From Malus domestica (Eukaryota > Streptophyta > Magnoliopsida > Rosales > Rosaceae), in NCBI RefSeq assembly GCF_042453785.1, contig NC_091664.1:5630501-5694500 (forward strand): DNA of 64,000 nt. The letters run 5' to 3'. Positions 7,300-64,000 of the stretch are shown here, one piece after another; position 1 is the stretch's first letter; every line of letters begins with the position of its first letter. A program made the position numbers and the translations under genes. Below the pieces are notes generated by a model. That model did not search any database. It saw only the letters and a list, made by a program, of their open reading frames with translations, and had not been told where the DNA came from.

Positions 7300-8250
7300 A
7301 AAATCCTTTGAAAGACTCGATACTGTCTCGGTCTCGAGATAGAGCATTGTTCGGATGGAATCTTAGTACATCAATCGAACTACACCCAGAAGGTGTTGCG
7401 CCGTTTTAATGAGGATAAAGCGAAGTCTTCGAGTACTCCTATGGTCGTTCGTACGCTAGATGCAAAGCGAGATCCCTTCCGTCCGAAAGAAGATGATGAA
7501 GGGATTTTGGAGCCTGAAGTTCCTTATCTAAATGCGATAGGCGCTTTATTGTACTTAGCTCAATGCATTAGACCCGACATCTCCTTCGCTGTTAATCTTT
7601 TGGCAAGATACAGCAATGCACCAACACGCAGACATTGGACTGGCGTGAAAGACATCTTCCGTTACCTTAAGGGTACTACGGATTTGGGCTTATTCTATCC
7701 CTACGAATCTTCGAGTGATGCCGCACCCTATGCTCATCGGGTTGATTTTCGCCTTGTTGGTTATGCCGACGCTGGATACTTATCTGATCCGCACAAGGCG
7801 CGTTCTCAAACGGGTTATGTCTTTACCGTTGGAGGCACCGCAATATCTTGGAGGTCAACTAAACAGACCTTAGTTGCCACTTCGTCTAACCATGCTGAAA
7901 TTCTCGCCTTACATGAAGCAACTTGGGAATGCTTTTGGTTGAGAGCAGTAATGGGCCATATTCGAAGCTCCTGTGATCTTCATCCCGCCGTTAATACCCT
8001 GACGACGATTTTTGAAGACAACGCAGCTTGCATCGAACAGCTCAAGAAGGGTTACATCAAAGGAGACAACACCAAGCATATTGCGCCGAATTTCTTCTTT
8101 ACACATCAACAACAAGAGCATCAGAAGATTGAAGTCACGCAAATCCAATCACAAGACAATCTGGCTGACCTTTTCACCAAATCACTACCGAAGGCGAGGT
8201 TTCAGAAGCTTGTTCATGAAATTGGTATGCGTAAATTTTCTGAGTTGTAA
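7300..8250 (+). pseudogene. copia polyprotein 3' end: RT thumb and RNase H
   Basis: A 285-codon frame from 7393 to 8250 encodes the C-terminal end of a Ty1/copia pol. Visible blocks are the RT-connection motif (YLNAIGALLYLAQCIRPDIS), the RNase H motifs VGYADAGYLSDP and SQTGYVFTVGGTAISW, and the terminal KHIAPNFFF and DNLADLFTKSLP motifs. The same frame continues upstream to about 7315 (CLGLEIEHCSDG, then LVHQSNYTQKVLRR) but meets an in-frame TGA near 7308 where a Gly codon is expected. N-terminal RT, integrase and gag are absent. RNase H His/Asp positions look partly altered (KHIAP rather than KHIDI), so the enzyme is probably inactive. Confidence 0.85.
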
Positions 8251-43752: not shown

Positions 43753-43840
43753 ATAGGTGTAACATCCCACATCGCCCAGGGGAATAGATCTTGTAAGCCT
43801 TAAATGTATATTCTCATCTCTACCTAGTACGAGGCATTTT

Positions 43841-43949
43841 GGGAGCTCACTGGCTTCGGGTTCTGTCGGAACTTCGAAGTTAAGCGAGTTCGCGCAAGAG
43901 CAATCCCAAGATGGGTGACCCACTTTGAAGTTTTCATGTGAGTTCCCAA
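43841..43949 (+). repeat. 5S rRNA-like domain in Cassandra 5' LTR
   Basis: The stretch includes gaagttaagcg (box A-like), then gatgggtgacc (box C-like), in the order and spacing of plant 5S rRNA genes, from memory of the 5S sequence. It is a retrotransposon-borne derivative and not a member of a 5S array. Confidence 0.85.
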
Positions 43950-44205
43950 AAATAAAATCGTGAGGGCGTGGTCGGGGCCCAAAGCGGACAATATCGTGCT
44001 ACGGCAGAGTTGAGCCCGGGATGTGGTGGGGGCCTGGGTCGGGATGTGACAATTTGGTATCAGAGACAATCCCTGGCCAGAGGTGTGTCGACGAGGACGT
44101 CGGGCCCCTAAGGGGGGTGGATTGTAACATCCCACATTGCTCAGGGAAGTGAATCATGTAAGCCTTAAATGTATATTCCTATCTTTACCTAGCACGAGGC
44201 CTTTT

Positions 44206-44314
44206 GGGAGCTCACTAGCTTTGGGTTCCGTCGGAACTTCGAAGTTAAGCGGGTTCACGCGAGAGCAATCCCAGAATGGGTGAGTCATTGGGAAGTTCTC
44301 GTGTGAGTTCCCAT
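44206..44314 (+). repeat. 5S rRNA-like domain in Cassandra 3' LTR
   Basis: Same domain as in the 5' LTR, with gaagttaagcgggtt and gaatgggtgag followed by gggaagttctcgtgtg. The box C-like part is slightly more diverged than in the 5' LTR, while the 3' helix matches 5S better. Confidence 0.85.
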
Positions 44315-44481
44315 AAACAATACTATGAGGGCGTGGTCGGGGCCCAAAAAGGACAATACCGTGATACGGCAGAGTCGAGCTCAGAATGTGTGGGGGCTCG
44401 GGCCGGAATGTGACAATAGGCATTTAGATCACTTTTATTTGTTAACAATTTAAGAATTCAAGACGTAAATTACATGGAAGG

Positions 44482-44829
44482 TGTTTATACCATACTTAGG
44501 GCCTCCATATTTAGATCTCATACAAATATTCGGGGGACTTAAATGTAATTATGTAATAAAGAAATGGGTAAATATGTAATAAGTGAGGAGCCCCTATTCT
44601 ATAAAAGGACTCCTCACCCTCACAATTGGAAGATGCCAATTCCTAGGCCTTCTCACCCTCTCTCAAAGCTCTCACTCTCAAAGCTCTCACTCCCTCAGAA
44701 ATACAATATCAGTGTGAACGTAGCCCAAACCTTGGGGTGAACCACAATACACCTTGTGTTATTTACATTTCTTGCAAATTCACGGTCGGATTTACGTTGT
44801 TCCAAGACCTCCAGTTTTGTGCATCAATA
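44482..44829 (+). repeat. 5' LTR of the gene-carrying element
   Basis: 348 bp with a TATA-like ctataaaagg at 44598-44607 and a pyrimidine-rich leader after it. This provides a plausible pol II promoter for the enclosed ORF. Confidence 0.9.
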
Positions 44830-45092
44830 TTTGACGCTGTCTGTGGGAAACAACACAAAAAGCTATGTCGGTTTTCTCTCATTTTTCATCTCACCACTGT
44901 CCACCGTGGATCTGCAAAACCCAATAAACACCAACCCCCCTCTTCTTTCTTATCTGCTCTGTCTCAGAAGTGTCTAAGTCTCAATTGGCCCAAAACCAAG
45001 ACCCATCAACACCAAAACACACACTCTGTGTGTATGTGCGTGCACTGCTTTAACCTTATCTTTACTCTGCAGAAAGAGAAAAAGGAAGAGAG

Positions 45093-46097
45093 ATGGATGA
45101 ACTGCTAGCGTGGGTAGCAGACATAGTGAGAGGAGGTGGCGGGCAAGACAACAAATTGGTCGCATTTCAGCATTCAATCATGGCTCTCGATCTAACCGGT
45201 TCCACAAATTTCCCAAATACACCAAACATCAAAACCCTAATCGGCAAAAACTACGACCGCAAGCTAACCCAATCAATCCAAAACCTTTTATCCGAAATTC
45301 CCAAGCAAAGCCCCAAATGCTCCGACTTTGCTGAGGAATTCTACGAAAAGATGCAAGCTCGAGTCGACCCGCATCTCGAATCAACCTGGGTCTACGTGGC
45401 ATTGGCCTTTCGCAGCTGGAATCATCCGAAAGACGACCATTTGGACCGAGTATCGACTGCAGATGACTTGTTTCAGCTGTTGTCGATGTGCTCTGCTTCT
45501 TGCGATTCTTCCAAGAGTGTCGCGATGCTTGCTCCGGTGGTTCGCCAGGTGTACAATGTGGGTGTTGATTTGTTTAAGATGGACTTGTCATGGAAGAGAG
45601 AGAAGAAAGTGATGAGAAATGTTAGGGATTTTGTGGGAACGATTCTTGGCTATATAAATCTGTGTTCCTTCGAAGATTCGGGCAGTTTGATTACGCCTTT
45701 TTCGGGTTTAATTCGTGTTTGGATGAACTCAAATGAGGGGTTGGAGTCATTCTTGCCTTTAGTGAGTAGTGACATTTTTGGAGGGCTTAATGAGGGAGAA
45801 TGTGAATTACTTAGCTGGAGTTGTTATGGCGGAGGTGTTTTTGTTGAAACTCTGCTTGGATTTCAAATTCGGGACTTCGGGGTAGGAGTTGGAGAAAGAG
45901 TTAAGCACTTAGGCTATCGGTTCCATTACAACGTTTGGGAAGTGTTACCTTTTCGGATATTGCAGCAAATTGTTTGCTATGACAGTTCGAAGATGCTACC
46001 AGAAACTCTTCTGGGCAAGCCAATCTGTGAGCATAAACGAAAGCTGGGTTTTGAGTTAGCTTCTGAGCCAGAAGCTGAAGCCGACGCAGGAGCATAA
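45093..46097 (+). CDS. 334-residue intronless ORF captured within an LTR element
   Basis: An uninterrupted ORF, MDELLAWVADIVRGGGGQDN to an acidic Glu/Ala tail. It is not a retroelement protein: no gag CCHC, protease, RT, RNase H or integrase motif. Composition is that of an ordinary helical soluble protein (for example WVYVALAFRSWNHPKDDHLD and VMRNVRDFVGTILGYINLC). I see no signal peptide or membrane segment and do not recognise its function. The 263 bases before the ATG look like a plant leader, with a CT-rich end at 45057-45070. Enclosure by LTRs, lack of introns and the A-rich tract at 46458 suggest capture from an mRNA. With LTRs about 6-7% diverged, survival of an open frame of this length is notable. 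The C-terminal part (from about residue 270) may be altered compared with the donor gene. Confidence 0.7.
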   Translation: MDELLAWVADIVRGGGGQDNKLVAFQHSIMALDLTGSTNFPNTPNIKTLIGKNYDRKLTQSIQNLLSEIPKQSPKCSDFAEEFYEKMQARVDPHLESTWVYVALAFRSWNHPKDDHLDRVSTADDLFQLLSMCSASCDSSKSVAMLAPVVRQVYNVGVDLFKMDLSWKREKKVMRNVRDFVGTILGYINLCSFEDSGSLITPFSGLIRVWMNSNEGLESFLPLVSSDIFGGLNEGECELLSWSCYGGGVFVETLLGFQIRDFGVGVGERVKHLGYRFHYNVWEVLPFRILQQIVCYDSSKMLPETLLGKPICEHKRKLGFELASEPEAEADAGA

Positions 46098-46457
46098 CCC
46101 AATCCGAATATGCTACCAGAAGGCACGATACCAGCACAGCATCACCATCGTGGCCAACCTGCAGATTCAAGGGTGCACATGCATGACAACTCAGAGACAG
46201 AAATAGAGGGTCAAGAAACAGAAAGAAAATCAGAAAGAAAAGCAAAAAGCAGAAAAGGAAAAGCCGAAAAGAAGATGCTATACTATTCCACTACTCCACA
46301 ATCCCACGGGATAACATGATTAAAGATAAGAAGATGCCCACCAAGTTTTCCCGTCTCCACTTTCTGTTAGACCAGAAGATGCCCATCAACATGCTGAAAA
46401 CATGTAATTTATTTTTCTTATCTTTCGGAGACATCTGTATAAACCCAATCAGAGGGT

Positions 46458-46482
46458 AATAATAAAAAAATTAAAAAAAAAA
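46458..46482 (+). other. A-rich tract after the captured ORF
   Basis: The stretch aataataaaaaaattaaaaa and following A residues lies 360 bases beyond the stop codon, then ordinary retroelement-like sequence resumes. It fits the remains of a poly(A) tail at the 3' junction of a captured cDNA. Confidence 0.5.
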
Positions 46483-46544
46483 GTAAAGCCCAAAATAAAT
46501 AGGCTGGAATGTTGTGTGGAGAGTGAAGGCCCATAAGCCCAAAA

Positions 46545-46760
46545 TAACACCAACCAGGTGATCAAAAGTAAGCCCATTACTCCACAATTATTCGGCAATC
46601 TGCTGCTATTACCACCAACAAGGTGATGAAATGTACAACCCGTACTCTAATATCATTTGGCAACTAGCCATTCATGCCACCAACTAGGTGATGAAATGTA
46701 TAACCCGTACTCTCTTCATGCCACCAACCAGGTGATCAAAAGTATGCCCAGTACTCCAAA
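46545..46760. repeat. irregular tandem repeat, ccaaccaggtgat units
   Basis: Four spaced copies of a caccaaccaggtgat-type motif, each followed by gaaatgta or caaaagta and an acccgtactc-type end, lie in the internal region of the LTR element. Confidence 0.7.
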
Positions 46761-46764
46761 TTAT

Positions 46765-46975
46765 ACATGAGCATTACTCATGTCATTCATACATAAACAT
46801 TCATGAGCATCACTCATGACAATCATACGTAAACATTCATGACCATCATTCATGTCAACATTCATGACCATCACTCATGTTAACATTCATGAACATCACT
46901 CATGACAACATCCATGAACATCACTCATGTCAATCAACATAAATATTCATGAGCATCACTTATGTCAATCAGCTT
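46765..46975. repeat. catgagcatcactcatg minisatellite
   Basis: Seven or more copies of a 25-30-bp unit with core attcatgaccatcactcatg and a tcaatcatacataaac-type spacer. The core is itself palindromic (catgag...ctcatg). Confidence 0.8.
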
Positions 46976-47075
46976 CAAAAGCTTCATTTACAGAGCTCTA
47001 GCTTCAAAAGCTTTATTTACAAAGCTCTAGCTTCAAAGCTTCACTTGCAAAGCTTCACCTACAAAGCTTCAATGC
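46976..47075. repeat. cttcaaaagctt repeat block
   Basis: Short tandem units around agcttcaaaagctt and tttacaaagctcta. They generate a low-complexity ORF (repeating Leu-Gln-Ser) that is not a gene. Confidence 0.75.
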
Positions 47076-47250
47076 AGGATATACAAATACCGCCTTCGAA
47101 CAACCGCCACTTCGGCCCATACATGGATTCAATTTGAAGTCTCCAGCCAACGGACTCTATTGACCGAAGACTTGGGGGACTACATTATGTACCATATATT
47201 GGGCCTTAACTGGGCCTCATGAAAAATACTTGGGGGACTTAGCCCATTAT

Positions 47251-47545
47251 TTATGTATTAAGGAGCGAGCTCTTATTCTATAAAAGGGACCCCCTCACCA
47301 CCATTAGAGAGCAACGCCGCCAGTTGAGCAACCGCCTTGCCGCGAGCATCACTCCTAACCTATCACTTATGTATTGAAGAGCGAGCCCTTATTCTATAAA
47401 AGGGACTCTCTCACCACCATTAGAGAGCATCACCGCCTACTGAGCTATCACCTCGCCGCGAGCATCAACTCTAGCCCATCATTTATGTATTGAGGAGTGA
47501 GCCCTTATTTTATAAAAGGGACCCCCTCACCTTCAAGCGCCACAA
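47251..47545 (+). repeat. 116-bp tandem array of LTR-like TATA-bearing units
   Basis: Units start at 47251, 47367 and 47483 (ttatgtatt), exactly 116 bp apart. Each carries cttattctataaaaggga-type sequence, and the first two continue with ctcaccaccattagagagca. The same attctataaaagg and ctcctcaccctc context occurs in the element's own LTR, so the array is derived from an LTR U3/R segment. The third unit is cut short at about 47540. Confidence 0.85.
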
Positions 47546-47748
47546 GTCCAGCCAACCAAGGCAACATAAGCCACAAGCCGAGCAGCCTCGCAACATGTGC
47601 TACTTATAGTTGAGCATCATTTCACTTTGAGCACCGCCTCATATCAAGTATCAGTTCAAGACGACATCTAGTTACTTCGGCTCACACATGGACTGAATTT
47701 CAAGTCTCCAGCCAAAAGACTCTCTTGATTGAAGACTTATGGGACTAC

Positions 47749-48096
47749 TGTTTATACCATACTTAGGGTCTTCGTATTTAGATCTCGTACAAATACTCGG
47801 GGGACTTAAATGTAATTATGTAATAAAGGAAGGGGCAAATATGTAATAAGTGAGGAGCACTTATTCTATAAAAGGACTCCTCACCCTCACAATTGGAAAA
47901 TGCCAATTCCTGGGCCCTCTCACCCCTTCTCAAAGCTCTCACTCTCAAAACTCTCTCTCCCTCAGAAATACAATATCAGTGTGGACGTAACCTAAACCTT
48001 AGGGTGAACCACGATACACCTTGTGTTATTTACATTTCTTGCAAATTCACGGTCGGATTTACGTTGTTCCAAGACCTCCGGTTTTGTGCATCAATA
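47749..48096 (+). repeat. 3' LTR of the gene-carrying element
   Basis: 348 bp, the same length as the 5' LTR, with TATA-like ctataaaagg at 47867-47876. It is followed directly by the target duplication gaagg. Confidence 0.9.
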
Positions 48097-48101
48097 GAAG
48101 G

Positions 48102-51228: not shown

Positions 51229-54200
51229 ATGGGAAAGAAAGGGAGTTGGTTTTCCGCCATAAGGAGGGTTTTCTCTCCTCATTCCAAGGACAAGGACAAG
51301 GACAAGGCAGTCAATGTAAGAGAATATGGCCTATTTCTTTTTCCAATGGAGTTTTCTTGATTTATATCACAACTTGTTTGAATGTCTCACATAGGCAGAC
51401 TAATCAAAGGTTGGCCTTTTGTAATTGTGGTTCTATTCGGACTACTTTTTCCCAAATTTCTAACTTTTAAATAAGTCTATTCGGGGGCTTGTCTCAGAAA
51501 CATGAGTCAGCTGCTAACTGTAATGAATGTGCTTGTAGCATTTGTACTAGCGAGAACTGTGTATAGATGGTGTTTAGTATTTACAATATGATTGTTTTTT
51601 TGGCGATAAAACAATCATAAATTCATACTGCAGTTTATACGTTCAATTCAGTTTATTGTATGTCTCCAACAAAAGACGGTTCAACTTTGATTAGAGTGGT
51701 GCACATTTTTCTTTTAAATTTGTGTAGTGCATAATCAGTTTTTTTTCTGCTTTTCGAGTGCAGAGGTAAAAAACGTGCAAAATATTCGCTAACTCAAACT
51801 AAATCTCTTTGTTAATCATATTGCAGGGTTCGGAGAGGAAAAACACAAAAGAAAAGAAGAAGGGGCTTGGGAAACTAAATCGTGGAGAGACCAATTCATT
51901 CATTCCGCTGTTCAGAGAACCAAGCAGCGTTGAGAAAATTTTTGGGGATTTTGAGAGGGAGCAACAAAGAGTAACTTTTAGGCCTCCTACACCTGATGAG
52001 CAACCAAAGACCCCACCATTTGTGCCTCCTAGAGTTGCTTCTCCGAGGGTTGGTTCACCAAGGGCTGCTTCTCCAAGGTCTTCTTCCCCAAGAGCTCCTT
52101 CTCCAAGGGCTCTTTCCCCAAGAGCTCCTTCTCCAAGGGCTCTTTCCCCAAGAGCTCCACCTCCAAGAGCTCCCCCTCCTCCAAGAGCTCCTCCTCCAAG
52201 AGCTCCTCCTCCAAGAGCTCAATCTCCTAGCACCTTTCATCAACATAAGGAGATTAGCTACAGACCTGAACCAACTCTAAGGAACCACCATGCCTCAGCT
52301 ACTAAAATTCAGGCAGTCTATAGAGGTTATATGGTAAGCTTACTTTTCACCCGTTAGCATTCAAGGGTGGGGTGGGATGTTACGTGTAATGTGAAAACTG
52401 GACTATACGAAGGTAGAATTCAATATAGGAAAACCTAATCCCTCTGTTCAGTTCATCTAATTGAAAGCTTTCTAGTGGTTCTACTCTTACTGTGGCCACA
52501 TAAGACAATGCATAGATATGCCCTGTCAAAATAAATAACTCAAATTCAGACATCACTTTTGGAGAACGTTTTAGGTAAAAGGTACTAGACTAACCAATTT
52601 TCCAAAAATGTAGCCATTAGTATAATATCACGTGCTATCTAGAATCTGGTGTTTTGTGTCCTGACTTTATATATAAAGTTGCAAATTTTATGTGCATAAT
52701 TAGTTTTTAGAAGCACAGCTGCAGTTCAAATGTAAGTGGTGGGCAAAGGGTTTGACCAGCGACCAGAGATAAGATTTTGTTTGGTCCGTATTTATTTTTC
52801 TGGTTTACACATTAAAACTTTATTTAAAAGGTACATTTTCTTCCCGTAGAGGTGTATTGTATAACTCTAGAGGTAGAGCGCACAGGAGAAAGATAAAAAA
52901 AGACTTCTGCATTACTGTGCAGTTGTCATTCTGTCCAAGATCATGCTACATCGTTCTTGGGAAGGTTTTGGTACCATGCGGAGTTGTCTTGAGCAAGCAT
53001 TTGATATGATCTGGATCAAGTCTAGGTTTTGTTAACTACAGGTTATGAACTTCCCGGGAGCCTGTAATGAACTTAGTCTACTTTTTATACAGGCAAGAAG
53101 AAGCTTTAGAGCTCTAAAGGGTCTAGTGAGGCTTCAAGGAGTAGTAAGAGGCCAGAACGTGAAGCGTCAGACGATGAATGCCATGAAATACATGCAACTC
53201 TCGGTGCGTGTTCAGTCTCAAATTCAGTCACGGAGGATTCAGATGTTAGAAAACCAAGCACGACATCAAGTCCAAAACAAGTATGACAAAGATGTGGAAA
53301 GCACCTTCGGCAAATGGAACTTGAGCCAGCAAGTATGTCTCCATTCATCTGTTTGTTATTCCATGCCTATCTGTTTCATTTGGTTCCAAACATTTAAGCT
53401 CATAGCTAGTGTAGGGGGCCCTAAAACAATTATAAGGTTGATCACTAACATTACACTCTGCACATCCACACACTAACACTTCTTCATTTGTACGTTAATT
53501 TGGTCAATAATTTGGGGGAAACATGGACCTTACGCATGTAAATAGAACATAAAATTAATAGAAGCTATGGTTCCGATGAACAACAGCTAAGCACTTAGCC
53601 GAGTTAATGGTTAATGGGCCTTGCAATATGTATCAAGCTGAACACAGCACGATGCTTATTGCATTTATGTCACTTCAAGGAAAGCTTAAGCTGGTGGAGA
53701 ATTGGCCGAAAATGTATAGTGATCTTATATTATGAAACAAGATCTTTTAGGCCGCATTAGTTCTCAAAACAGATTAGATGAACCATCTTTTGATATGGAA
53801 ACCTGTAGACTCACATGATTATAACAATCTAAAAGAAGATTACTCTACTTTTTGTGCTAAAAAATGAAAAATAAACATATAAAAACTCCGGTACTATGTC
53901 TGTAATGTGGTTAAGCACAACATATCTATAAAACAAAGTAGTGCTAACAATTTCAAGGATTGTGCTCTAGTCTGAGACGGCCAATAACGAGGAATGGGAT
54001 GATAGCTTGCTAACTAAGGAGGAAGTGGAGGCAAGGTTGCAGAAAAAGGTTGAGGCAGTCATGAAAAGAGAGAGAGCAATGGCTTACGCATACTCCAACC
54101 AGGTATTCTTTCTGCACTAGTAGTAGTAACCCAACTGAATCCACTTTCTAGTCTCATTTTCTTCAACTGTATGTTATTCTGCGTTCACTTTTCTGTCAAT

Positions 54201-55100
54201 CTTCACTTTTATGTTAAAGAAAAAAAAAAGAACATAGTGGCTTAAGGGGTTAATTGGTTTCTTTTGTGCAGTTTTTAATGCAATTGATAGTTATCATATT
54301 TCTTGATGTTGCCTTGTACTTTTGTGTACCAAAAACAGCTGTGGAAGGCTACTCCTAAATCAGGTCAAACACCTATAGCTGATATCCGGTCTGGGGGATT
54401 TCCGTGGTGGTGGAACTGGTTGGAACGTCAGATCCCTCCAGTAGACCCTCCTGTGCCAGCAACCAATGCATTGAAAACTTTTCAGTTTACTCCTCCAAGA
54501 CTAGGATCAGAGCGAAAGCCAAGCCCCCTGGCCCAGTCAAGCAATCAAGGGGAACATCCTTTTCCATTTGATAACAATTTTGACACACCAAAATCGTCAG
54601 CAACAACCATTAATCTGACAACAATAAAACCAGCACGAACCCCGCCTCCTACTAATATGAGTAGGACTCCACAAGCAAACAGGTCTGGGCTATCGAAGTA
54701 CAGAAGAACACCAGCTGATGGAGCTGAATCCCCTTTCGGTTTTCCACTCAAGGATGATGCCAGCCTCACAAGCTGCCCCCCATTTTCGGTTCCAAACTAC
54801 ATGGCTCCCACGGCATCAGCCAAAGCGAAAGCACGAGCTAGTAGCAATCCCAGGGATAGATTTGTGGGGACACCGACCAGTGAGTCCAAAAGGAGGCTTT
54901 CCTTCCCTTTGACACAAGGTATTGGGTCTTTCAAGTGGAACAAAGCTTCTTTTTTCTCTAACAACAAGGATTCCAGCTCTCCAATGAATTTAGATAAGAA
55001 CCGGTCTTTGCAATCTATCGGAAACACGAGCATAGATTCCACGGTTTCGATGCCTGCGGCTCCACGAGCTGGGAGGAAGCCGTTTAAACGATTTGTGTGA
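51229..55100 (+). CDS. IQD14: IQ-domain protein, IQD14-like calmodulin-binding scaffold (5 exons)
   Basis: Exons are 51229-51315, 51827-52333, 53093-53332, 53971-54102 and 54339-55100. All joins are phase 0, giving 575 residues. The N-terminus MGKKGSWFSAIRRVFSPHSK is the usual IQD start. Residues about 90-160 are a Pro-rich array of SPRA / PPRA units. The IQ motif begins ATKIQAVYRGYM at 187 and is split by intron 2 after Met198, the conserved IQD67 intron position, and continues ARRSFRALKGLVRLQGVVRG. WWWNWLERQ (about 345) and the C-terminal region starting VPNYMAP (473), followed by a Lys/Arg-rich stretch, match the rest of the family. IQD proteins bind calmodulin and associate with microtubules and the plasma membrane. 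The SPR array favours the IQD13/IQD14 group, but the exact number is uncertain. The gene is convergent with ATG11. Confidence 0.92.
52030..52225 (+). repeat. in-frame SPRA/PPRA coding minisatellite
   Basis: Units of 12-15 bases (gctccttctccaagg and variants). Two adjacent 30-bp higher-order copies (gctccttctccaagggctct followed by ttccccaaga) lie at about 52097-52156. The array lies inside IQD exon 2 and keeps the frame. Confidence 0.85.
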
Positions 55101-57845: not shown

Positions 57846-60800
57846 AGAGAGAGAATGCATTTATAAAAGAAACAAAGAACAGAACAGCCGGATGCATGAG
57901 TTAAAAATTGCTGAGAAATGATCTCTTGAAAAGAAAACATTAAAAAAGGGTTGAGTCAGACCTGAGATTCATCAAGGAGTTTCCGATTTGTGTCCAATTC
58001 CCTCTTAAGCATAGAAACATCCTCCATAGCAGCTTTAAGCTTAATTTCTGTTTCACTCAACTGGTTTGACTTCTCTGAAAGTGCAGTTTGCAATTCCAGT
58101 AACAGCTCCGCACTGACTTTGGTGTCCAAGCCTGGGTCAACTGCTGTTTCACATGGTATAACATTAAGAGGTTCAGGCATGCTTTCAGCAGTAGAACTGT
58201 TTGTCAGTGACATGCCCAGCTGCCCCTCCATCTTATCTTTCCCATCTTTACCACTGGCTAGCAGTTCTTCACGCTGTAGCTCTTGCATGGATGAATCCAT
58301 TAGATGATTTCGTACTGCAGAAGAATCCATCATATTTTCATCTACCCCATCTCTCATTTTCCCAGGTTGCACATTGAACAGACCCAGTTTTGCATCAAAA
58401 ACACTAGAGACGCAGGAAACCTCATCCATGGGATCAGTATGAGATGAGCAAGGCATATGGACTCCCCTACCACCTTCTTGCTTGCAGATATCAACCTTAT
58501 CAGACAAAATTCCAAATTCAGAGGCATCCTTATCATTTGAAATCTTCTGGCTTTGTGAATACTGATCAGACAATCTCTGTTCAAGTTCTTGAATGCGTTT
58601 CTCATATGAAAGACACTGCATCTGCTTCTCCCTGAGCATAGATTTTAGATGCTTTCCATATTCATCTTTCAGGTGCAAGGCTTCAGCTGTCTTCTCTGCG
58701 GCATCCTTCAATAAATGATCCACTTTACTATCATCCAATGATTCAAAGTCTACTTCAGGCCAGAATGAACAAATCACAGCTATAGCAGACGCCAGTTCTG
58801 CTTTCAGTTTTGCATTCTCAACTTCCAACTTACCAGTTCCAGCAATCTCTACCAACTCACAGCCTTCAAGTAGCTCCTCAGAGTTGCAATTCTCAAAGTT
58901 ATCCAATGTACTCTCATCAGCATCAACCGAATGACTTTCATTAGACATAGAATTTGAACCTCTAAACGCACTCTTTGAAGACAGTGCAGTCAAGTACTCA
59001 GGTGCATAACGGTCAATGTCTGAAATCTCAATATCAAGCAAGCTAGTATCAAAAGGAGCTATGTTGACATCACACTGATTAGGCGTATCATATAGTCCCA
59101 TGGATGCTAATACATCCCTGGGTATGTATAAACTGTGAGCTCTCAAAAACTCCTCCCGTCTCCTGACTTCAGTCTCCCTCTTTGTCGCAAGTCTTTCAGC
59201 CAACTGTCCAGCCATCCCCATGTAAAGCTTCAATGAAGCCTTTCGTCTGACTATTTCTGCTAAGCAGGCTCTATATGCAGGGCCGATCCCACGGACCAAC
59301 TTTAAGTCCAAAAATAGATCCTCCTGACGGACCATTGCCTCTCTAAAAACAGGAAACTGTAATTTTGCATCTTTGATGATGTAAGAAATATATGTTATCT
59401 TTTGCATAAATCTATGGAGAAATACATTCATTTCATTCTTTTTATCCTTGCAGAAGTTGAGGAGCTTGGAAATTACGCGATCACAAGCCTGCATCCTAGG
59501 CAGGTGATTTTTGTCATGGACATCATACATAGGGCCCAAGGCTGAAACTGCATCATGAGGACGAAGTGAGGAAGACAATTGGCAAGACAAGCAATCATCC
59601 ACGAGTTTCTTGACAGTATTTACATCTTTGCTGCATGAATTATAACTGGTTAGTATATTTAAAAATATTTTAACTAATTTAGTATTTCACAGCAGACAAT
59701 TGTGCATCTAAGTGCAGTAGTGAAATTGAGAGTCGTGATCCCAAAGACCATAATATTCAGAAAGCTTTAGTAGTCCTGGAGGTTTATGATCTGGTAAGCT
59801 TCGTATCTATTATGATATGCTTCCACTCTAACGGGTGTACGAGTACATCAAATGGGTAAAATCATTCAACAAAATACAAGTTCGTGCATATACAAACTTC
59901 GTATCTATTATGATATGCTTCCACTCTAACGGGTGTACGAGTACATCAAATGGGTAAAATCATTCAACAAAATACAAGTTCGTGCATATACAAATAAAGA
60001 GAATAGCCACTTCCTGAATGTTACCATACTCGAACAAAAGGACAGCCACAAACAATAAAAATTGAGTTCTGCTATTCCCTTCACTTGTCCTATTTTCCCA
60101 ACCACATTAAAATACAAACATATTTGCAAATTTTTATCACCTGCAAAATTTCCATTCATATAATGCTTTCCCCAACCTCCACAAGAACAAATTGAGCAGA
60201 AAGACCTCTTCATTGAAAAGAGTCTTTTGCTCAACCCTTTCTTATCATTTCATAAGATAAACTAGTCATTAATCGTTAGAAGGTTTTGAGCTTTGAAGCT
60301 AATGCATAGCATTATATGAGGAAAATTGATCTAGTGAAAATATGAGGTAACTTCTGATGAAAACTCAACCACCTTATGGCTTCGGATTTTGATACCTAAT
60401 TGATGGAGAACAGGATTGGGAATTGCTGACAAGGATGTTTAATCTTTTATTCTAGAGTTGCTGACAAGGATTTTGATACCTAAATGATAGAGAACAGGAT
60501 TCGATTAAGGTCTTTATATTACATCCTTGTAACTCTTTGGAGACAGTTTTGGACGATTGAATTAAAAATTGTTGGAGCTTTGCTTCTCTCTAGGTTTTGT
60601 CATGCAACCTAACCCTCGGTGTGATGCCTTAGGCCTGTTGGAGTGATTCCTACAAACCCTACTGGTGTGATGCTAGTAGTTTCCATCCTTTTCTCATAAT
60701 TTTCATTTATTTCTTTATGATTCCCGCTGTACCTTCTTTCTACAATTCATAAAGTCAACAACACTCAAATTAGACAGACATCCTCCCTTAATTGAGGTTG

Positions 60801-62442
60801 TCCTGCATCACTAACTCATCTACTTCTACTTCATTAGGTTAAGCACTTATCTAGTGGTACTTGTTTGCTTTAAGAGAAAAATACAAATGTGAGTAATTTT
60901 ATTTGCCCCCATATTTTGCCCCTGGCATGAGTATCTACACAAACTCCATTCATTTCCTTTCCATCTCTCCTTAACAGCATCTCAGTATACCCAAAAGATG
61001 GGCATTTGAACTAACCATATTATCTAATGATGATAATAAAGGCAACAGACAACTTTAAAAGCACCAGAAGTCAAAAAACAACAGGATGAATTTGTATCTC
61101 CGTACAATTCAGTCGAGGAACACTGAAGAGCTTAAGGGTAGCAGACCAGGAGAGTAAACTAAAACAAAGCCTACAACGAACATATGATGCATACGTGAAC
61201 ATGAAAGCACACATACAAACCTCTAAATTATATCTGGAATCCTGTCTACAAAATGTTCTTAACATGAAATATGCTGCAATACTACTCATGCAACGTAATT
61301 GCTAACAAAATGATAAATTCTAAAAACCGATGTGGTTTTCAGCTACAACAAAGTTTTAAAATGATAAATGAGCATTCCTAAGTGATCTCCAAATGATCCA
61401 AAAGAAACTTGACAGAGGAAGTTGGAAAGACAAATAGACGAAAACCATATATCTGATACTGCATAACTATGACCGGAAAAAAAGAAAAGAAAACCAACCT
61501 CAATGATTGCATGATACTCCTTTGCTCATGAATATATCTTTGGTGCTCCTTAATCGTGATTTCCAAATTCCTAATAGGCAACGAAGCCCTATTAGAAAAC
61601 AATTCTTCGACTTTCCGCTTTACCTCACTAAACATCTGTTTAAACTGTGAAACCTTATTCTCAAACTGCCTGTGGGAACTACTACAAATTTCTCCCGCTT
61701 TCCTCAAGTTCTCTTCCTTCACAAAATCCAATAAGCACTTCCGAGTGGCAGTCTCTAATGCAGGGTGAAGCTTGATAGATCTCAGTTTTTCTACATCCCT
61801 CCCAAGATTGGTCAAAAGATCAGAATGACTTCGATGCTGTTGTGAATAACGCTTCATGAATTCTGTATAGTTTTGGTTTATCATTTTATAATATTGATCC
61901 AAATTGCCCCTAGCAACCTCCACTGCCCTTTCTTGAACCTTTTGCTCCCTCAAAAGCCTCTCACAGTTCTCATATTTTACTTGGGTGCAACTGTAAATTG
62001 CATGACCCTTGTGGTAGTGGTACCTAAATTGCCTTTCATAAGAAGGCAAGGCCTTCAAAGCAGGGTCTGAAACATCATCCAAAGGGTGAGGGTCATGTGA
62101 AGCTGAAGGTGATTGGGGGTCAGCAATGTCAAGAATTTCAACTTGCTCGGGCTGAGGGAGTGGAGAATTAGTCTGCAGTCTTGCTTTATTGAATATAAAC
62201 ACTTCCAGACCATCAGCTGGAAGCTTATATGCCGAAAGCGGCCTCTGTGGCTCAAGCTTCATATCCAAACACAAAACAAGCTGGTCATTGAGATTAATCC
62301 CAGCCATGGATTCAATATACAGCATAACTGCCTCCACCGGTGTGCTGTCTTCACAATCGAGCTCAAATGAATGCCCATTCTCAGCAACATGAACCAAAAG
62401 CTTGCCCTGATGAACCAAACCTTCAGCGATACTCGAACTCAT
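55747..62442 (-). CDS. ATG11: autophagy-related protein 11 (ATG11), 5 exons
   Basis: Minus-strand exons are 62442-61499, 59630-57962, 57184-56964, 56602-56389 and 56139-55747. Junction phases 2, 0, 2 and 0 all agree, giving 1146 residues, about the length of Arabidopsis ATG11. The N-terminus (LVHQGKLLVHVAENGHSFEL) is the ubiquitin-like fold. The region from SYERQFRYHYHKGHAIYSCT through exon 2 corresponds to the ATG17-like part. Residues about 550-950 hold Leu/Glu-rich coiled coils. The last exon is the ATG11 C-terminal domain (FGRLEVHEIAAFVLNTFGQY to GCEYFVVTVAMLPGTTT). ATG11 is a cytosolic scaffold that links the ATG1/ATG13 kinase complex to forming phagophores and supports selective autophagy. 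Intron 1 (1.87 kb) has a 98-bp tandem duplication and intron 2 a long GA repeat. The promoter is to the right of 62442. Confidence 0.95.
57771..57852. repeat. long (GA)n microsatellite in ATG11 intron 2
   Basis: An almost pure GA run of about 70 bases, then gtagagagaga. On the ATG11 sense strand this is a CT tract. It creates the false poly-Ser-Leu ORFs seen in this segment. Confidence 0.95.
59799..59994. repeat. perfect 98-bp tandem duplication in ATG11 intron 1
   Basis: Copies at 59799-59896 and 59897-59994 appear identical base for base (start cttcgtatctattatgatat, end gtgcatatacaaa). Identity implies a very recent event or an assembly artefact. Confidence 0.95.
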
Positions 62443-63200
62443 CTTATCTCAAACCAAACAACGATGCTCGACCACAAAGTCCAAAGCAAACAGAATCAAA
62501 TTTCCAGTACCACCTTATACATACAAGTACATGCTAAGTTCCGAACCCAAAAGGTTAAATCCGATACCGCTGACCTCCAAGCAATTGAATTGAGCGAGCA
62601 AACCACTTTTGTAGAATAACCTGCAATCAACTGGAAAATTCCCGATTTATAGATCTTCAGCCTCGACAAAAACCCCAAATTATCACAGACCCACCTCCAA
62701 ATCTATAAAATTTAACCCAATTCTCAACAACCCACAAAAGATTATCGAAGAAAAAAGGGAAGAAGAGCATGACGTACCACCAATTCTTGAAAAGCAGCCA
62801 AAATCACATCAGAAATTTGTCGAGGGGGGCTCGATTTCTTCGCGATTATCAACCCTCAAGCAAACATCAACAAATATAATCGAGGACAAAGACCTTCACA
62901 ACTGAGGAGGAAGAGGAGGAAGCGGAAGAGAGGTAATCGAAAGAGATTGGTTACGTGAAAAAAAGAGGCTCACAACAAGGAAAAGGTTTTCACGAAATCC
63001 CTTTCCCTTTCACACACATATATATATATATATATATATTATATACCATAGCCACCACTGCACCGTCTACGACTCTTTCTTCTTCAGCAACCTTTTATCT
63101 TTTTATCTTTTACTTTTTCTTTGGTTTTTTTCCAAATTGTAAACAAACGCGGAGAAGAGAACCGTTGTGCTGGGAGCGTTAGCTCACAAAAGTAAAATGG
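62443..63200 (-). promoter_or_regulatory. ATG11 5' leader and promoter region
   Basis: The sequence upstream of the ATG11 start has the mixed composition of a leader to about 62940, and may contain a 5' UTR intron. A TA microsatellite at 63018-63046 (tatatata) is in position to act as a TATA region on the minus strand. No specific element can be proved. Confidence 0.45.
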
Positions 63201-63623: not shown

Positions 63624-64000
63624 TATAACATCCCACATCGTCTAAGGGAGTGGATCCTCTAAGCCTTATATGTATATTCTCATCTCTACCTAGTACGAGG
63701 CCTTTTGGGAGCTCACTAGCTTCGGGTTCCGTAGAAACTCTGAAGTTAAGCGAGTTCGCGCGAGAGCATTTCTAGGATGGGTGACTCACTGGGAAGTTCT
63801 CGTGTAAGTTCCTAAAAACAAAACCGTGAGGGCGTGGTCAAGTCCCAAAGCGGATAATATCGTGCTACGGCAGAGTTGAGCCCGAGATGTGGTGGGGGCT
63901 TGGGCCGAAATGTGACAATTTGGTATCAGAGCCAATCCTTGGTCGGAAGTGTGCCGACAAGGACGTTGGGCCCCTAAGAGGGGTGGATTGTAACATCCCA
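63624..64000 (+). mobile_element. second Cassandra TRIM, truncated by the window end
   Basis: The 5' LTR spans 63624-63917 (294 bp). It starts tataacatcccacatcgtc, so the canonical TG is mutated to TA, and ends tgtgaca. It is followed by the primer binding site tggtatcagagcc. A 3' LTR starts at 63989 (tgtaacatccca) and is cut by the window edge. The same-strand copy at 43758 shows the family layout. Confidence 0.92.
63707..63815 (+). repeat. 5S rRNA-like domain in the second Cassandra LTR
   Basis: Contains gaagttaagcgag and ggatgggtgac followed by gggaagttctcgtgt, the closest match to plant 5S rRNA of the three copies in this window. Confidence 0.85.

Follow-up and report, generated by a model that had tools for sequence, protein, structure and literature searches.

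An LTR retrotransposon family of apple that very probably refills a cargo slot with exon pieces of host genes

Background

That LTR elements capture genes is already known from maize Bs1, soybean GmaRetroS15 and tomato Rider/SUN. According to the excerpts of the literature available to us, to which all comparisons in this section are confined, Bs1 is described as one element with pieces of three host genes (PMC13317346), the gene-bearing TRIMs of PMC4717578 are 30 elements of seven subfamilies with lengths of 1,172-1,449 bp, and 5'-transduction is stated in PMC13317346 not to have been reported in plants.

The element studied here lies in a stretch of 64,000 nucleotides from Malus domestica (hereafter the window), which corresponds to C4:5630501-5694500 of the searched assembly of 651 Mb and 19 contigs (C denotes contigs, L loci and P protein records). 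Like Bs1 (PMC13317346), it is an LTR element in which pieces of host genes are joined in a new ORF; unlike Bs1, different copies of the apple family carry different gene sets. The soybean TRIM GmaRetroS15 (PMC4717578) is likewise an LTR element that is small and non-autonomous and contains exon-only pieces from three genes, whereas the apple family measures ~3.6-4.9 kb and has cargo matching outside loci in all five copies searched. In tomato Rider/SUN (PMC13317346) an LTR element has likewise moved a host segment, but that segment was transduced from one locus, while in the apple family the mosaics combine exons from unlinked loci. For maize, rice and sorghum, too, pieces of host genes enclosed by LTRs are described (PMC2774510, PMC3726574). 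Pack-MULEs (PMC13317346, PMC4717578) share with the apple family the capture of many different host genes family-wide, although they are DNA transposons that take exons and introns, whereas the apple family has LTRs and mostly spliced pieces. No apple or pear family of such a kind appears in the excerpts of the literature searched (including PMC13317346, PMC4717578, PMC5659011, PMC2774510, PMC3726574, PMC7264820, PMC4668562 and PMC6409787). Copies with differing multi-gene cargo, rather than gene capture as such, are the larger finding.

Results

Boundaries and layout of the window element

The element is 3,615 bp long and is bounded by two LTRs of 348 bp each on the plus strand, the 5' LTR at 44482-44829, which belongs to a high-copy family, and the 3' LTR at 47749-48096, with the target site duplication GAAGG at 44477-44481 on the left and 48097-48101 on the right. 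A first-pass annotation, made from the letters alone, had proposed these boundaries together with an LTR divergence of about 23 in 348 sites (6-7%), and the alignment bears out both: the LTRs match at 325 of 348 positions (93.4% identity, no gaps), and the 23 substitutions consist of 20 transitions and 3 transversions, which gives a K2P divergence of 0.0703. If 1.3e-8 substitutions per site and year are assumed, a rate given in PMC5659011 and uncertain for apple, the insertion would be ~2.7 million years old. Both LTRs have TG..TA termini; most of the relatives that were read have TG..CA.

Directly 3' of the 5' LTR stands the PBS-like TTTGACGCTGTCTGTGGGAA, which belongs to a stretch of ~100 bp comprising the PBS-like motif and the family leader (44830-44930, plus strand). 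The relatives have mostly TTTGGCGCCGTCTGTGGGAA or near variants at this site, so that the PBS-like motif noted earlier is conserved in the family, whereas the polypurine sequence noted with it is represented only by the weak purine-rich stretch GAAGACTTATGGGACTAC upstream of the 3' LTR. The PBS motif may be Tat-like, which would place the family in the Gypsy lineage; a literature search with its letters gave no match. A tRNA scan, an RNA-family scan and a plasmid search gave no matches either. The weak polypurine stretch is part of the conserved 3' region of the family, which contains tandem repeats (46402-47748, plus strand). Three 116-bp tandem units occupy 47240-47587 within this region, and by eye each resembles the TATA-box part of the LTR, TATTCTATAAAAGG, giving the appearance of a promoter-like array. 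Outside the element, a repeat of ~300-375 bp is found twice in tandem adjoining the insertion (43758-44134 and 44123-44417) and a third time at the end of the window (63626-64000), the copies being 84-87% alike.

Host gene pieces and their joins

Judged by sequence matches, the window copy appears to hold pieces of four host genes, which we refer to as A, B, DUF604-type and RBOH-type. The start of gene A (45075-45149, plus strand), recognised as a gene by eye, matches C4:25717606-25717680 and C17:5645184-5645245 at 87% each, and C16:9795219-9795481 shares 44890-45149 at 88% and then continues into different sequence. By eye this different sequence looks like a MATE transporter; Pfam gave no family for it. 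Gene B contributes 30 nt upstream of its ATG and exon 1 up to the 5' splice site (45150-45955, plus strand; donor in the C2:5713461 region). It is followed by a piece of ~32 bp from the DUF604-type gene (45956-45987, plus strand; C17:7594937-7595010, assigned via copy L017) and by a 104-bp exon piece (46018-46121, plus strand) that matches an exon on C13 at 94% and whose translation resembles an RBOH oxidase by eye.

At the 5' join, the donor match starts 30 nt before the ATG of gene B, directly after the gene A start, and ~3 nt (AAC) are shared, by eye. At the 3' join, exon 1 of gene B ends exactly at its 5' splice site: with the join marked by a slash, the donor reads TTTTCG/GTTAGT and the window TTTTCG/GATATTGC, where relatives have GTCAG/GATATTGC. 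Written out further, the donor reads ..TTACCTTTTCG/GTTAGTATT and the window ..TTACCTTTTCG/GATATTGCAG, and the copies without gene B (L016, L017, L018) have TGTCAG/GATATTGCAG. The element side of this join thus begins just after an AG; since the joined stretch is internal to a DUF604-type exon on C17, the AG is acceptor-like rather than a normal acceptor. Since the AG is inside this exon, and since the letters GG are common to both sides, splicing of a fusion RNA is not proven by the join. A retained intron at this position is ruled out by the donor letters.

The first-pass annotation had read an intronless ORF in sense orientation, followed by an A-rich tract, as the marks of a captured cellular gene. 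The orientation is indeed sense, but the lack of introns is uninformative, because the captured piece is a single exon. The A-rich tract is no poly(A) tail of a captured mRNA: the gene B piece ends at exon 1, and the tract is family sequence that is also present in copies without gene B (L016 from 46207 onward, L017 from 45955 onward).

The chimeric open reading frame

The longest ORF of the element, of 334 aa (45093-46097, plus strand), is host-derived. It runs from the gene A start, which contains residues 1-19, through exon 1 of gene B into an element tail that consists partly of the DUF604-gene and RBOH-exon pieces. As had been noted, this sole long ORF has no retroelement motif: compared with Pfam it gave no family above the cut-off and no retroelement family, and compared with the PDB no convincing match. 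The protein search returned 40 matches, of which all with a named organism are from plants, the nearest being from Malus domestica and M. baccata, and the protein cluster of the ORF sits on 13 contigs in public data. The Pfam and protein searches together rule out a known retroelement protein, one of the outcomes that the first-pass annotation had named as fatal to its reading.

Donor residues 1 to ~211 are in frame within the ORF. A net 5-bp loss near 45798-45804 then shifts the frame of the gene B piece, which has a second deletion, a 9-bp loss near 45682, and the remainder of exon 1 contains two stops in the donor frame. The ORF is open, as had been stated, but only through the frameshift and by luck, and its product differs from the donor protein. 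Over 256 codons, including those that are stops in the element, the C4 copy and the C2 donor differ by 11 synonymous and 26 non-synonymous changes (dS 0.068, dN 0.045, ratio 0.66). This comparison, which the earlier annotation had proposed as a check, gives no sign that the protein encoded by the gene B remnant is under constraint, and the changes are compatible with neutrality. For the captured pieces as a whole we detected no protein function, and at the sequence level saw no evidence for a working protein.

In the Malus domestica protein P0002, gene B runs into the element tail with the 5 bp still present. Its sequence matches, by eye, neither the donor nor the C11 copy described below, and we rejected both as its origin; nor is it an exact match to either element copy, which suggests a further or polymorphic insertion, in a copy not seen in the searched genome. 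The P0002 tail, used as a protein-database query, returned P0002 alone. Two protein records, of 305 and 307 aa, appear to be retroelement cargo, which is a warning for annotation that some predicted genes may be of this nature.

The donor of gene B and a sister copy

A search of the genome with the ORF gave 12 matches, window included. On C11, residues 2-333 are matched at 77% with 15 stops in the matching frame, and there is a second C11 stretch; the remaining matches include two on C2 and two on C15 (residues 19-81 and 70-191), three that cover only residues 279-333 (two of them 280-333 and 284-332) and two that cover only residues 307-333. The DNA of the window agrees with C2 at 93.4% over 45150 to 45959 (810 bp), and the five blocks by which P0003, a relative of 532 aa, maps to C2 provide the multi-exon donor that the earlier annotation had expected. 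At the C15 place of gene B, P0003 residues 162-406 are missing. In the C15:16157790-16158307 region (L015), residues near 161 are joined to residues near 407 with the middle part gone, and P0026 looks like the product of this locus.

Further copies with the same ORF had been anticipated as well, and the C11 match is indeed a second LTR-bounded copy with the same cargo (L013) and its own target duplication, GGTAC. When the sites of the shared span are polarised with C15, 6 are common to both element copies, 13 are found only in C4 and 13 only in C11, with 3 donor-only, 2 conflicting, 3 other and 39 that separate C15 from the others; the C4 and C11 copies are thus sisters derived from the C2 gene. 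The second LTR-bounded copy shows that the cargo moved together with the element.

A fixed frame around variable cargo

From an LTR search, 40 of 4002 first-look candidates were scored (4002 is not a copy count). We read 13 other copies internally, eight full copies found by the LTR alone (L051-L058) and five that entered via the ORF search (L013, L016-L019), and added six 5' ends from LTR matches with 1.5 kb of flank (L030, L039, L040, L043, L044, L045). Apart from L039, all of these copies (18 of 19) match the leader. Similarity to the window ends near 44900-44934 in 17 of the 18 and continues only in the sister L013; in the eight LTR-chosen copies it returns near 46402, preceded in L052 by a single short match. 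The common parts of the family are thus the LTRs, the ~100-bp leader and the ~1.35-kb 3' region, and between them the LTR-chosen copies carry 1.4-2.3 kb of cargo that is largely unrelated from copy to copy, sharing stretches of at most 112 bp, most of them at the 3' margin. L013 and L016-L019 share longer tail parts, as expected from stepwise descent. The other copies are ~3.6-4.9 kb long, and among the 11 with both LTR ends read, target duplications are exact in nine and have one mismatch in two. In L039 (C1:24098305-24098652 plus flank), a family LTR is followed by a different leader and a stretch that is gag-like by eye, for which Pfam gave no family; this copy may be an autonomous partner.

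The cargo of five of the eight LTR-chosen full copies was searched in the genome, and all five match loci outside the element, 15 in total (one for L052, two each for L053 and L057, three for L056, seven for L058), so that four of the five match two to seven separate loci. Of the 15 loci, 11 recur in a less similar form on another contig; in our reading, which builds on the pairing of apple chromosomes, this would fit old duplicated genes rather than element copies. In L057, a linker-histone gene (C13, also C16) is accompanied by a C5 gene that resembles Mpv17 by eye, and the element version of each lacks an intron; L056 combines a cystatin (C7, also C2) with two further genes, from C16 and C5, and lacks two introns. 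L053 carries five consecutive exons of a C8 gene, whose layout recurs on C15, together with a second gene found on C17 and C9. The seven loci of L058 (C3, C13, C16, two on C8, C9, C17) are not all shown to be genes; among its pieces is an exon bounded by splice sites on either side. In L052 the sole locus found is a RING gene on C14, also on C6, which is contiguous and so offers no intron to test. Of the copies that entered via the ORF search, L019 has an RBOH-type exon piece, a C1 piece (macro domain by eye) and a third piece with many further matches at 86-94%, and L017 has a gene piece of C17 and C9 (Agenet-like by eye) next to the DUF604-type piece. Six of 20 typed cargo pieces are above the Pfam cut-off (linker histone, cystatin, RING, DUF604, ubiquitin, sulfate transporter), and the other 14 have no Pfam family above it.

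Intron removal and piece ends

At the letter level, seven of nine exon-to-exon steps are exact GT-AG removals (L062, L063, L071, L072 and three in L075) and two are inexact (one in L075, one in L076), which argues that capture was largely from spliced RNA. A donor GT follows four of 15 tallied piece ends (gene B, L062, L067, L070), against a background of 218 GT in 4245 exon letters (binomial P 0.006, with ends treated as independent); the other 11 are not at GT. Four later ends that stand outside this test (L075, L076, L077, L078) include one GT, that of L076. Some of the GT ends look like weak splice sites (L067 GTTCAT, L070 GTTCGA, L076 GTCGAT), and L073 ends a single letter away from a GTGAGAG. 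Three joins show an overlap between adjacent donors, of 14, 16 and 5 query letters.

In terms of known classes, the paired LTRs and short target duplication are those of an LTR retrotransposon, yet not of an autonomous one, the longest ORF being host-derived with no retroelement Pfam family in it. As in Bs1-like elements, intron-free host exons lie inside the LTRs (with the two inexact steps as exceptions), and more than one host gene is present in the window copy, L053, L056, L057 and L058, with only one in L052. The copies are too large for TRIMs, judged by the gene-bearing ones of PMC4717578. LARDs have a large conserved non-coding internal domain, whereas the internal region here largely differs between copies, and the direct LTRs, with no terminal inverted repeat among the five pairs listed, do not agree with a Pack-MULE.

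Discussion

Taken together, the window element is very probably a member of a high-copy, non-autonomous family whose cargo slot has been refilled with exon pieces, largely from spliced RNA. The earlier reading as an LTR element with cellular sequence in sense orientation stands, but what was taken for one captured gene is an exon 1 fused with pieces from three other genes. As a whole, the family has the look of a gene-shuffling device of nature, in which a slot for replaceable cargo, framed by a fixed leader and a fixed 3' region, would be filled and refilled with host exon pieces, largely via spliced RNA. Host mRNAs may enter element particles, an autonomous relative would supply the enzymes, and reverse transcriptase would switch from element RNA to host mRNA, or back, where the two templates have a short stretch in common; the joins with overlaps fit such switching during reverse transcription. 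In some cases, judging from few joins, a host exon may first be spliced onto an acceptor-like AG in the element RNA, which would leave the join at a splice site. The joins at host 5' splice sites fit a fusion RNA spliced into element sequence in this way, and such RNA could come, for instance, from an element that had inserted into a donor-gene intron.

Whether a single gene was taken once, by luck, in an otherwise ordinary family can be weighed directly. Gene B cargo is found in only two element copies of the searched genome, but other copies carry other host pieces and the window copy appears to hold pieces of four genes; this explanation is largely refuted, and we consider it very improbable. 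We regard as no more probable a capture of genomic DNA rather than RNA, through gap repair, gene conversion or nested insertion: while the pieces of gene B, gene A, RBOH and RING are each single-exon, with no splicing visible, and several piece ends lie away from splice sites, the five consecutive exons of one gene in L053 speak against it, and the exact GT-AG removal in seven of nine steps demonstrates that the multi-exon pieces tested took an RNA route.

Even less credence can be given to the 334-aa ORF as a functional captured gene under selection, in the manner of retroviral transduction, where the open frame and the cluster on 13 contigs are outweighed by the dN/dS of 0.66 to the donor, the frameshift and two stops in the donor frame, and the 15 stops in the C11 copy. 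Slightest of all is the chance that a resident gene came to be flanked by two LTRs that inserted independently, or by LTRs misplaced in the assembly; this analysis found no supporting point for either. A resident gene, an objection that the first-pass annotation had raised against itself, is ruled out by the identical 5-bp duplication outside both LTRs, the same arrangement on C11 with a duplication of its own, and the location of gene B with its other exons on C2.

Going further than serial refilling, the family may be anatomically specialised for the serial capture of spliced exons, in part through the joining of host 5' splice sites with acceptor-like sites of the element RNA. It might then be the equivalent of Pack-MULEs on the RNA route, having distributed many different multi-gene chimeras across an apple-type genome; we consider the chances of this proposal evenly balanced. 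A family whose copies differ in their multi-gene, mostly spliced chimeras would amount to exon shuffling repeated many times in nature, with donors, junctions and dates that are known, which would make splicing into element RNA versus template switching directly testable.

Elsewhere in the window, 7312-8250 holds an open stretch of 312 aa that by eye resembles a remnant of a Copia reverse transcriptase/RNase H. Also by eye, two genes are represented by exons, an IQ-domain-like one, which has 15-bp repeats, at 51803-55100 (plus strand) and an ATG11-like one at 57956-62448 (minus strand); a 98-bp unit is duplicated almost perfectly at 59796-59994.
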